From Actinomycetota bacterium (lineage in GTDB: Bacteria > Actinomycetota > Geothermincolia > Geothermincolales > RBG-13-55-18), in assembly GCA_030019255.1 (NCBI GenBank), contig JASEFK010000006.1, positions 88,464 to 152,463 on the forward strand: DNA of 64,000 nucleotides, in the 5' to 3' direction. The stretch's first letter is position 1, and the number at the start of each line of letters is the position of its first letter. Below the pieces are notes generated by a model that was not told the origin of the DNA, made no database searches, and saw nothing but the letters and a program-made list of their open reading frames with translations. A program made the position numbers and the translations under genes. Positions 29,637 through 33,708 of this stretch are shown here, piece by piece.

Positions 29637-30098
29637 TCACGCCGGCTCGAAGTGGTCGAGGTCCCAGTAGTCCCCCTCGACCTGGTCCTTCCAGACCGCC
29701 TTCACCTTCATCCCCACGCTGACCTTGCCAGGATCCACCCCCTCCACCTTGTGCAGGAGAAGGGAAGCGTTGTCGTCGAGCCTTATGAGGCCCAGCACGT
29801 AGGGCTCCTCGGCGGGGCTCAGCTTGCCGCCCTTCTCCATGACCACGTGCCCCACGGTGAAGTTCTCCAGGATCCCCTCCTGGGGAAGCTCCACCATCTC
29901 CTCCATGACCTTGTTGCACACGCCGCAGTACTTGCGCGGAGGAACGGCTATCTTAGCGCAGCCCGGGCACTTGGAGCCGAGTATCTTCTTCTCCTTGAAT
30001 CCCTCGAAGTACCGGGTCAGGTACTGCCCGATGTAATAGTTGTAGGTGAAATCCAAGGGGACTACCGGCGTAAGAAAGGTCTCCTCCGTCGCTCCCAT
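29637..30098 (-). CDS. DUF35 Zn-ribbon/OB-fold protein (first gene of operon)
   Basis: 153 residues. Start ATG 30098 is chosen because AAGGAGGGA is just upstream; an earlier in-frame ATG at 30113 lies before that site. The N-terminal part contains YIGQYLTRYFEGFKEKKI, followed by a Zn ribbon (CPGCAKIAVPPRKYCGVC) and an OB-fold (EGILENFTVGHVV, VGMKVKAVW, ending DLDHFEPA). As with its paralogue at 26759, it likely docks on a thiolase-fold partner encoded directly downstream (14 bases). Two different DUF35 proteins for two thiolase-like proteins suggests a 2+2 complex. Confidence 0.87.
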   Translation of the reverse strand: MGATEETFLTPVVPLDFTYNYYIGQYLTRYFEGFKEKKILGSKCPGCAKIAVPPRKYCGVCNKVMEEMVELPQEGILENFTVGHVVMEKGGKLSPAEEPYVLGLIRLDDNASLLLHKVEGVDPGKVSVGMKVKAVWKDQVEGDYWDLDHFEPA

Positions 30099-30762
30099 AA
30101 CTCCCTCCTTCATCCGTAGAAGTCCTCCTCCCGCGATGCCGCCGGTTGCCGGTAACTGTCCCGCAGCGGCCCGGGGAACCCCTTCTCCCTCTCCATCATC
30201 CTCCCCTCCGGCAAGCTATCGCCTCACCTCCCTCGACGGAAAGACGGCCATGGATAGCCTCTCCATGCACCCCAATCCTAAAACCTTTAGCGCGTATGAA
30301 CCCTGCAAGCCAAGACCGTCCGGCGCCGCAAATCTTGTGCCGTTCGCCGCCCGGGAAAGCTTGCCCTCCTTTCGCCCTCGGTATGTCCCACCCGGAAAAG
30401 TCTCTCTTCCCAGCCGGGACGGAGCAACACCCATGCCCCTTGCCCCGCTCCATCAAGCCGACCCCTTATCTCCCGGACGGTCTCCCTTGCTTTCCTCGAA
30501 AATTTTTTCCCTTTTTCCGGCCGTCGGAAACCGCTCCAAGCCTTATGCCAAGGATTTACACAGACGTTCCCGGGGCTTTCTCCCTCCATATAGCGACAGG
30601 CAGTTCCCACAAGCACGCCCTGGGTCAGCGATGGCCTCAAGCCCGAAATTCCGAACTGACGTGGAATACTCTCTCATCGGGCCCGGCACCGGTCCAAATA
30701 CTTCATGTCACTCTGATGGATGGACCATTAATAATCTTAACTGACGCTTAATACTTGTTATT
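30099..30762. other. Intergenic region, nothing recognised
   Basis: About 660 bases. The overlapping open frames on both strands are rich in Pro/Ser/Arg and look like non-coding GC-rich shadows. No RNA gene or clear terminator found. Confidence 0.45.
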
Positions 30763-31500
30763 CTACCTCTTTTCTGCCAGGACCGCAAGAGAGGTTCCAC
30801 CCCGCAGGTCGAACCGCCGGACGAGGCGGGATTCCAGATCCAGGAGCAGCTGGAGGACTTGGTGTGTGGCTGGGAAAAGCGTCTCCATGCCCTGGGTATA
30901 ATTCCCCCTTCCTCCCACGAAATTGCCCCGCCACATGTAATAGCGGACCAGTGGCTGGACCAGCACGGTGTAGGAGGTGAGGCGCAGCAGGCGCAGGCCC
31001 GTGGCACGCAGGAGGCGCTTCGCCTCTTCCCGCGTGTAGCGGCGGAGGTGGCCGGCCAGGCAATCGAAGTCGCTGTACAGCTCGGGGCGGCTGGGGATGG
31101 TGAGGAGGAGATGGCCGCCCGGCTTGAGCACCCTCTCCAGTTCCCGCAGGGCGGGAAGGTCCAGTCGCAGGTGCTCGAGTACGTCCAGGCAGGTCACCAG
31201 GTCGAAGGAAGCATCGGGATAGGGCAGGTCATAGATGCTGGCTTCGCGGACGGGTGCGATTCCCCGCAGGCGGCAGAAGCGCACCGCTTCCTCGGAGTAG
31301 TCGCAGCCCTCCACCTCCCCGTAGCGGGAGAGGAAGGGGAAATTGCCTCCCGTTCCGCAGCCCACGTCGAGGACGCGGCGGCCCTCCCCCAGCGGAAGCC
31401 CGTCCAGGAGGGAGGCCAGGACCATGCGCCGACCCACGAACCACCAGTGTTCGTCCTCCTTCTCGAATATGGTGGCGTAAGCCCTTTTTTCCAGTTTCAT
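30763..31500 (-). CDS. Class I SAM-dependent methyltransferase
   Basis: 245 residues. VLDVGCGTGGNFPFL (43-57) is motif I, VEGCDYSEEAVRF motif II, and FDLVTCLDVLEHL and RVLKPGGHLLLTIPS the later motifs. A Methyltransf_11/UbiE-like fold with a C-terminal helical region resembling methyltransferases of lipid, polyketide or quinone side reactions. Start ATG 31500 follows GAGGAGCCGGC and lies 9 bases after the DUF362 gene; it is the last gene of a three-gene operon begun by the putative selenoprotein. Methyl acceptor unknown. Confidence 0.85.
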   Translation of the reverse strand: MKLEKRAYATIFEKEDEHWWFVGRRMVLASLLDGLPLGEGRRVLDVGCGTGGNFPFLSRYGEVEGCDYSEEAVRFCRLRGIAPVREASIYDLPYPDASFDLVTCLDVLEHLRLDLPALRELERVLKPGGHLLLTIPSRPELYSDFDCLAGHLRRYTREEAKRLLRATGLRLLRLTSYTVLVQPLVRYYMWRGNFVGGRGNYTQGMETLFPATHQVLQLLLDLESRLVRRFDLRGGTSLAVLAEKR

Positions 31501-31509
31501 GCCGGCTCC

Positions 31510-32616
31510 TCAAGCTCGGGAGAGGGCACCCCGTGGGCAGGCCTCGGCGCAGCAGAAACAGGCGATACAGGCTCTGTCGTCGATGCTCGGAAGTTCCCCG
31601 CGCATGGACACCGCCTCCACGGGACAGGCCTTCACGCAGATACGGCAGCCGTCGCACCTTCCCGCATCCAGGCGCACCTCCCCGAAGCGGAAGGAGGGGG
31701 CGCGTCCCGCGAGGCGGTCCAGGGGGCGGCGCAAAAGGTCGTATATCCTGAGGAGGATGCCGGAGATCATGAGGCGGTTGAGGTCCGGCCGGGTGGGAAG
31801 CTCAAGCTTCCTGCGCACGGCCTCGATGCCGTCACCCAGGACCTCGAATCCCTCCAGGCGGCCCAGCCCCCTCTCCGCCGCCAGCCGGATATGGGTGATC
31901 TCCCGGGGGTCCGCTCCCATGATGCGGGCACAGGTCGCGTCCACCTCCACCACGTTGTCCCCGGCCACGATGGTCCCCAACCGCACCGGCCTCCCGTTGG
32001 TGGGCCCCAGGGCTCCTTCCATGCCCACCAGGCCGTCCACCACTACCAGCCGGGAGCGGATGACCGTGTTGAGGTCCACGATGCCCTGGTCCAGGCCGTG
32101 GAGGTGGATGATGAGCTTGTCCCTGGTGGGGACCACTCCCTTGAGGTTCTTAAGGCCCAGGGAGACCACAGTCTGGAGGTGGGTCTTCATCACCGGCACG
32201 TTGATCAGGGCATCGCACTCCAGTACCGGCCTGGCCACCACCTCCTCCTTCACCGCCACGCCCCCGGGGATACGTATCTCCACCTTCTCCGCCGTGTCCA
32301 GGTCGATCAGGGGAAACCCGTAGCGTTCCCGGAAATCACCGTACCCGGCGCGGGGAAAGACACGGGAGGAGCGGAAGGGGTGGATGGGGCTCTCCCCCAC
32401 CGTCACCTCAGCGCCCTCCGCCGCCGCCATCCGGCACACCTCGGCCACCAGCTCCGGGTCGGTGACCGCCCCGGTATCGCTGCTCTTAGCGGCGCAGATG
32501 TTCGGCTTGACCAGGACCTTGTCCCCGGGCGAGACAAACCTTCCCATGCCTCCCAGGAGCTCTATGGCTCTCCTCACCTCTTGAGGGCTTTCCGCCCTTA
32601 TCACCGCGACCGTCAA
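31510..32616 (-). CDS. DUF362 protein with C-terminal 2[4Fe-4S] ferredoxin domain
   Basis: 368 residues. Residues ~10-270 are DUF362 (VLVKPNICAAKSSDTGAVTD, INVPVMKTHLQTVVSLGLKNLKG, VVEVDATCARIMGADP), and the C-terminus carries two [4Fe-4S] motifs (CDGCRICVKACP and CIACFCCAEACP). Such proteins occur in anaerobes as electron carriers of unknown partner. The start is TTG 32616, supported by AGGAGGTG eight bases upstream. It sits between the putative selenoprotein (34 bases upstream) and the methyltransferase, so a shared redox role is inferred. Confidence 0.87.
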   Translation of the reverse strand: MTVAVIRAESPQEVRRAIELLGGMGRFVSPGDKVLVKPNICAAKSSDTGAVTDPELVAEVCRMAAAEGAEVTVGESPIHPFRSSRVFPRAGYGDFRERYGFPLIDLDTAEKVEIRIPGGVAVKEEVVARPVLECDALINVPVMKTHLQTVVSLGLKNLKGVVPTRDKLIIHLHGLDQGIVDLNTVIRSRLVVVDGLVGMEGALGPTNGRPVRLGTIVAGDNVVEVDATCARIMGADPREITHIRLAAERGLGRLEGFEVLGDGIEAVRRKLELPTRPDLNRLMISGILLRIYDLLRRPLDRLAGRAPSFRFGEVRLDAGRCDGCRICVKACPVEAVSMRGELPSIDDRACIACFCCAEACPRGALSRA

Positions 32617-32650: not shown

Positions 32651-33658
32651 TCATCTCAGGATCTTTACCGCCTCGTCGACGCACCAGTCTCTTATTCCTT
32701 CGCACACTTTGGAATCATTTACATATTCTTCCAGGTCTTCCCGGTCACCGAAGTGCCGGCCCGTGAGCTTCCGGCATTCCAGGGAACCGAAGCGGCTCCG
32801 GAATCCCCGCACCAGGGGATTCCCTACCGCCCACAATCCCTTCTTCCCCCTGCCCGCGTAGAGGTTGAGGTGGCCGCGGACGAAGAAGCGCAGGGTCCCA
32901 AGGATGCCTTCCTCGCGGGGGTCGATGCCCCAGACCTCGCCCAGGGGTAACAGGGCTCCCGCCAGGGCCCCGCAAAGGCCCCCGGACAGGCCCACGCCCC
33001 CGTCCAGGGCTATGGATATTTCTTCCAGGAACTCGCTTCCCAACCCGGTCGCCTCGCGGATGCGGCGCAGGACCGGGGCGGCGCAGTGACCGCCAGCCGG
33101 GCTCCCGGCTCCGCCCCTCGTTCCTCCCGCACCAGGAGCCGTGGCTCCCCCGCTGGACGTCTCCGCGGTCCCCGCTTCCGCCGCTCCCTCCCCGAGGGGA
33201 CGGTTCACCAGCTCGATGAGCTTCTCCACCGCCTTCCCGATGTGGTTCACGCAGCGGGTGAAGACCTTGCCGGTGAGGACGTAATCGGCGAACCCGGACG
33301 CTTTCCGGAGGTCGGCCCCGCAGCGCTCCCGGCACAAGGTGCTACCGAAACTCTCCTCAAACCAGGCGGTGTACTCGCGCATGCGCCGGTAAAGGGCCTC
33401 CGCCTTCGCGGCGTCTTGTTCCAGGAGGTCCCCCAGGTGCCCCAGGGCCAGGGCCATGCACCCCCCGGAGACCACCCCGCAAGTGGAGCCCTCGCTCACC
33501 CCTCCCCCTTCCAGGGGACAGGCGGCCCTCACCGCGCTGCGGTCGGTCAATCCCAGGTACCCTACCAGGGTACCGAAGGTGGCCTGGCTTCAGTTCAGGT
33601 AGGTGATGAGACGCACGCGCGCCAGGGTGGCTATCCAGCGGTTTACCAGTTCGTCCAC
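32651..33658 (-). CDS. C_GCAxxG_C_C family redox protein, probable selenoprotein (in-frame UGA)
   Basis: Read with UGA 33592-33590 as selenocysteine, the product is 335 residues, two tandem copies of the C_GCAxxG_C_C module. Copy 1: LITYLN-U-SQATFGTLVGYLG, then STCGVVSGGC and GSTLCRERC. Copy 2, after a Gly/Ala linker: GHCAAPVLRRIREATG, GGLCGALAGALL and GSLECRKLTG. The UGA falls exactly where copy 2 has Cys. A hairpin with a UGGUA loop begins 15 bases after UGA (SECIS-like). Start GTG 33658 is preferred (AGGAGG five bases upstream; promoter -10 TATAAT at 33708-33703), giving Sec23. ATG 33697 is also in frame. Without Sec decoding only 22-35 residues would be made. First gene of an operon with DUF362 and methyltransferase genes. 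Confidence 0.8.
33556..33574 (-). other. Candidate bacterial SECIS hairpin
   Basis: On the minus strand GGTACCC (33574-33568) pairs with GGGTACC (33562-33556), leaving the loop UGGUA. The loop starts 22 bases after UGA 33592-33590 and contains GGU, as in known bacterial SECIS loops, and the distance is within the accepted range. It lies in coding sequence, as expected for bacteria. Confidence 0.65.
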
Positions 33659-33702
33659 AACGGCCTCCTCCCGCCGAAATCCAAGGGAAGCGGACATGGA
33701 AC

Positions 33703-33708
33703 ATTATA
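33703..33708 (-). promoter_or_regulatory. -10 box of the selenoprotein operon
   Basis: A perfect TATAAT on the minus strand (33708-33703). The predicted start of transcription is near 33697, giving a ~39-base leader with AGGAGG before GTG 33658. The -35 region is weak. Confidence 0.5.

Follow-up and report, generated by a model that had tools for sequence, protein, structure and literature searches.

The window, a 64,000-nucleotide stretch of DNA, holds on its minus strand a gene that very probably (at a probability of about 0.97) encodes a selenoprotein whose single in-frame UGA is read as selenocysteine (Sec). Twelve homologous genes have a UGA at the same codon, which is more than chance would give. 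In the mechanism that we propose, SelB carrying Sec-tRNA-Sec would bind a hairpin just past the UGA and insert selenocysteine. The product would be a 335-residue redox protein of two tandem modules, the first with the residues Sec-Cys-Cys-Cys and the second with Cys-Cys-Cys-Cys.

An in-frame UGA in a gene of two C_GCAxxG_C_C modules

The reading frame runs on the minus strand from ATG 33697 or GTG 33658 to TGA 32653-32651, and its sole internal stop is the UGA at 33592-33590. The first-pass annotation had described the same frame and single UGA, and re-reading of the sequence gave identical coordinates. The gene and its parts are as follows.

32651..33658, minus strand: predicted selenoprotein gene; GTG start, 335 aa by readthrough of one UGA, terminal TGA
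33590..33592, minus strand: in-frame UGA, predicted to be read as selenocysteine; residue 23 from GTG 33658; 12 homologous genes have UGA here and 7 have Cys
33664..33669, minus strand: Shine-Dalgarno sequence AGGAGG for GTG 33658, 5 nt before the GTG; similar sites in most homologues
33703..33708, minus strand: TATAAT, a -10-like element recognised by sequence; recurs in homologues of the window's family
33212..33595, minus strand: module 1, C_GCAxxG_C_C domain (PF09719), from Pfam and alignment; Sec predicted in place of the first Cys
32681..33088, minus strand: module 2, C_GCAxxG_C_C domain (PF09719), from Pfam and alignment; four Cys
33556..33574, minus strand: SECIS-like hairpin GGUACCC-UGGUA-GGGUACC, beginning 15 nt after the UGA and agreeing with the bSECIS rules of PMC13188914

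Among the 20 homologues, an ATG or GTG lies exactly 22 codons before the UGA column in 19 and 18 codons before it in the remaining one. Because of this constant distance, GTG 33658 rather than ATG 33697 is almost certainly the true start. Of the 15 genes in the window gene's family, 11 have the TATAAT 46-54 bases upstream of the start and two more have it 73 bases upstream. To assess the segment before the UGA, its 22 codons were compared between the window and the five closest homologues. The differences at codon positions 1, 2 and 3 summed to 9, 4 and 29, a pattern that is the signature of protein-coding constraint and bears out the earlier suggestion of coding character in this segment.

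These data bear on the alternative that translation starts past the UGA, for example at TTG 33550, so that the UGA would end a short leader peptide and the protein would be an N-truncated form of 299 aa. Such an ORF does exist, and automatic annotation would pick it; however, its product would lack the first conserved Cys and the first helix of module 1, and the Cys-bearing sisters read that region uninterrupted from the same start, 22 codons upstream. The Shine-Dalgarno sequence and the TATAAT, both given correctly in the first-pass annotation, belong to the start upstream of the UGA, and the protein sequence in between is under coding constraint. We consider a downstream start very improbable. 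Reading the gene through the UGA from GTG 33658 puts right an annotation that would be cut short by ordinary gene calling.

The sole Pfam family in the product was PF09719 (C_GCAxxG_C_C), which matched two stretches with a total E-value of 1.4e-33 and a score of 116 bits against a gathering cut-off of 27; each module was separately above the cut-off. This confirms the two tandem modules that had been recognised by eye from the sequence. The product was also matched by TIGR01909, the NCBIfam model 'C-GCAxxG-C-C family (seleno)protein' (61.5 bits, cut-off 47.4). Both modules were then aligned by column with four single-module PF09719 proteins from the same phylum. The UGA residue fell in the invariant first Cys column, where module 2 has Cys, as the first-pass annotation had stated, with the UGA itself sitting in module 1. 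Both modules also have the GxCGA Cys and the third and fourth Cys, so that across the four Cys columns of the GxCGAxxG pattern module 2 has four Cys and module 1 has the predicted Sec and three Cys.

In genomes G013 and G014, single-module PF09719 genes carry a TGA in the same column (..FASGYG-U-AEA..), and both are candidate selenoproteins: L101 (G013:C39:16706-17119) and L096 (G014:C54:9494-9907), each with the TGA at the first Cys column (..SGYG-U-AEA..). This suggests that several branches of the family, at least two, use the first Cys position for Sec.

Conservation of the UGA, the hairpin and the selenium machinery

Full-length homologues turned up at every rank from the same genus to the same class in a protein search of 99 related genomes, metagenome-assembled genomes among the relatives compared. 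At the UGA column, 12 genes from 11 genomes read TGA, seven genes read TGT or TGC, and a single divergent gene reads GCA; TAA or TAG occurred in none of the 20. The 12 UGA-form genes span two families. The expectation that C_GCAxxG_C_C homologues would show Cys or Sec at this column thus held on alignment. Viewed in isolation, one internal stop in one assembled genome might be a nonsense mutation, the mark of a pseudogene or a sequencing error. However, the same UGA stands in 11 separately assembled genomes, which excludes sequencing error, and its column is Cys elsewhere; the frame past the UGA is moreover intact, and frame and protein sequence are conserved on both sides of it. We regard this explanation as vanishingly improbable, even beside a downstream start.

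The genome itself encodes the machinery for Sec. SelA (E=7e-160), SelB (382.5 bits, cut-off 242) and tRNA-Sec (81.8 bits) are neighbours on contig C14, SelD lies upstream of them on the same contig, and ARAGORN called the tRNA as tRNA-SeC with anticodon TCA (UCA). A second tRNA-Sec match above the cut-off was a tRNA-Cys, leaving one genuine tRNA-Sec. Absence of selA, selB and selC had been named beforehand as evidence against a selenoprotein; all are present, together with a selD that has its own UGA (L018, ..SKSG-U-AAKVG..). Three formate-dehydrogenase-like matches of the Fdh-alpha type (L106, L107 and L108) have one in-frame TGA each; with SelD and the window gene, this genome thus has at least five genes that contain a UGA. 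By its gene content, then, the genome is one that decodes UGA as Sec.

The hairpin had been described as a 7-bp stem with the loop UGGUA, 15 nt past the UGA, and these coordinates are correct. Under the bSECIS rules of PMC13188914 (energy limit -7.5; energies from a simple-stem calculation), it has a spacing of 22-23 nt, a stem of 7-8 bp and a stability of -11.8 kcal/mol. Of the 1358 TGAs in the window, 24 (1.8%) are followed by an equally stable hairpin under the same rules, and the stability of the observed hairpin is reached in 1.6% of synonymous shuffles. Taken alone, the hairpin is modest evidence for Sec for this reason; as an argument for Sec, its earlier use stands as to fit with the published rules and is weakened by the frequency with which other TGAs in the window do as well. 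Rfam gave no match within the window or around the UGA.

Conservation across relatives turns the hairpin into strong evidence. In the window's family, the GGTACCC-TGGTA-GGGTACC stem persists, altered in one genome by a single GC-to-GU change. Family f4 (protein identity 46-50%) has a different 7-bp stem, GTACCGT-CGTGG-ACGGTAC, displaced downstream by one nucleotide; its first pair is A-T in one genome (ATACCGT/ACGGTAT), another genome has a G-U variant, and the synonymous-shuffle frequencies are 0.1-0.5%. The -7.5 limit is passed by 10 of the 12 UGA genes. L040 has a 7-bp stem of -5.8, short of the published limit, and L051, the second UGA copy in G014, has a weak 5-bp stem only.

SelA and SelB scored above curated cut-offs in all 11 UGA-form genomes. 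The only homologue-bearing genome without SelA and SelB (G017) carries the Cys form. A strict tie of the Cys form to loss of the Sec machinery was rejected, since, of the seven Cys-form genomes, the other six retain both proteins.

The gene with GCA at this column (L037, G004:C48:41401-42297) has Ala in a genome that encodes SelA and SelB; its module 1 may have lost activity.

A maximum-likelihood tree, built without the trait residue of the Sec forms and leaving the direction of changes unset, requires four changes among Sec, Cys and other residues, at least two of them forced by well-supported branches. The gene family shows several Sec/Cys exchanges. The three genomes of genus g4 carry the Cys form, and two of their three genes (L030 and L032) keep a good stem in the same register. 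These stems are possible SECIS fossils after replacement of Sec by Cys, on a branch of moderate support and for a change that the tree does not orient.

Possible redox function and gene neighbourhood

To look for remote structural relatives, a profile of six family members was compared with solved structures. Only split-Soret cytochrome c (1h21) rose above noise (E=3.1e-6), in an alignment over the first Cys and the G-x-CGA motif, with a weak extension to the region of the fourth Cys. A novel iron centre has been reported in split-Soret cytochrome c (Abreu et al., PMID 12589573, cited in PMC5701242). With the tandem proteins only, the match was not significant (E=0.36). The iron centre of this cytochrome is possibly of the [2Fe-2S] type. 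A PDB sequence search with the protein alone returned only weak matches to a secretion-system ATPase, which arose through the Gly/Ala-rich linker region. AlphaFold models (pLDDT 48 for the full protein and 66.6 for module 1) were too uncertain for structural claims, and Foldseek found nothing in the PDB with these low-confidence models.

The four conserved thiols and the remote 1h21 match suggest that a PF09719 module may bind an Fe-S cluster through these thiols or serve as a thiol redox site; we put the odds of a redox-centre role at about even. In our model, the four residues of each module would form one redox or metal centre, possibly Fe-S, Sec would make module 1 more reactive than module 2, and the tandem protein might exchange electrons with a ferredoxin encoded next to it. 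A more specific picture is unlikely: the four residues of module 1 would ligate an Fe-S cluster, with Sec as a natural selenolate ligand beside an all-Cys module in the same chain, and the class would swap Sec and Cys there repeatedly, leaving SECIS-like fossils in the Cys forms.

Downstream of the gene in the window lie:

31510..32616, minus strand: DUF362 protein with a C-terminal ferredoxin domain of the two-[4Fe-4S] type; a neighbour in the genus and some sister genera
30763..31500, minus strand: class I SAM methyltransferase; matches the DVU_1556 family weakly, at a score under the cut-off
29637-30113: OB-fold-type small protein, a label of our own reading

In the window's genus, g5 and g3, the order is the Sec (or Cys) gene, the DUF362-ferredoxin, the methyltransferase, the OB-fold-type small protein and thiolases. 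No DUF362 gene lies between the tandem-module gene and the methyltransferase in g4 and g6; in g4 the methyltransferase stays and another gene (L064:6269-7204) takes the place of DUF362. In f4 (G019), the homologue adjoins genes for a YchF-like GTPase and a thioredoxin-domain protein, both labelled by eye. The DUF362 partner is common, not obligatory. The gene order noted in the first pass is present, but it is less unusual than was claimed, given the replacement or absence of DUF362 in some relatives. PADLOC and a plasmid collection gave no match.

The product of L064:6269-7204 begins like a nitronate-monooxygenase or FabK-like flavoprotein, as recognised by eye.

As a rule, Sec is inserted with low efficiency, and polar effects could plausibly reach the genes downstream. 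The three genes of the window lie close together on one strand, and the Sec form could be made while the UGA also acts as a selenium-sensitive switch, with termination at low selenium lowering expression of the downstream DUF362 and methyltransferase genes. The Cys-form genomes, however, keep the same downstream methyltransferase without a UGA, and a regulatory role is unneeded to explain anything observed. Such a switch seems unlikely. A UGA that serves to insert Sec remains our preferred reading.

Comparison with known systems

PMC9312934 includes PF09719 among the selenoprotein families, and PMC13188914 gives its selenoproteins as two forms (1 and 2). The fusion of a Sec and a Cys module had been called unusual; the tandem form is the new part, and the selenoprotein nature of the family was already recognised. 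As in that family (PF09719/TIGR01909), both modules match and have the four Cys columns, with Sec predicted in place of Cys; the window protein differs in joining two modules in tandem, one with Sec and one with Cys. No established biochemistry was found for the PF09719 family, and no description of the tandem Sec/Cys protein or its spread in the actinobacterial class was found in the searchable literature.

The HUGP/GUXX-star fusion selenoprotein (NF045501) resembles the window protein through the N-terminal half of its model, which matches module 1 at 59.7 bits. This is far below the 325-bit cut-off, and the window protein is without the GUXX-star half and has one Sec only. Since the N-terminal half of the model also covers ordinary PF09719 proteins, the HUGP half is apparently a domain of the PF09719 type.

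Five small ORFs from other actinobacteria (L109 to L113) match the GUXX-star half of NF045501 and have an in-frame TGA; these are probable selenoproteins of another kind.

DVU_1555 (NF045669) and the DVU_1556 methyltransferase (NF045667) likewise place a C-GCAxxG-C-C protein near a class I methyltransferase, and both models match weakly (56.9 and 64.5 bits). The scores are below the cut-offs of 103 and 155, however, and the window has a DUF362 gene in between and a tandem Sec form. Split-Soret cytochrome c (1h21) shares the remote profile match over the first Cys, G-x-CGA and fourth Cys regions; it is a haem protein, whereas no haem-binding was identified in the window protein.

A 2026 review describes Sec-to-Cys substitutions as rare and documented mainly in FdhA and SelD (PMC13188914). 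Sister genera that carry the same protein with either Sec or Cys offer a natural comparison in which the Cys module is an internal control, and a tandem architecture is added to a poorly understood selenoprotein family. Set against the known systems, the new parts are the pairing of a Sec and a Cys module in tandem, the spread of this architecture through one class of actinobacteria and the repeated exchange of Sec and Cys.
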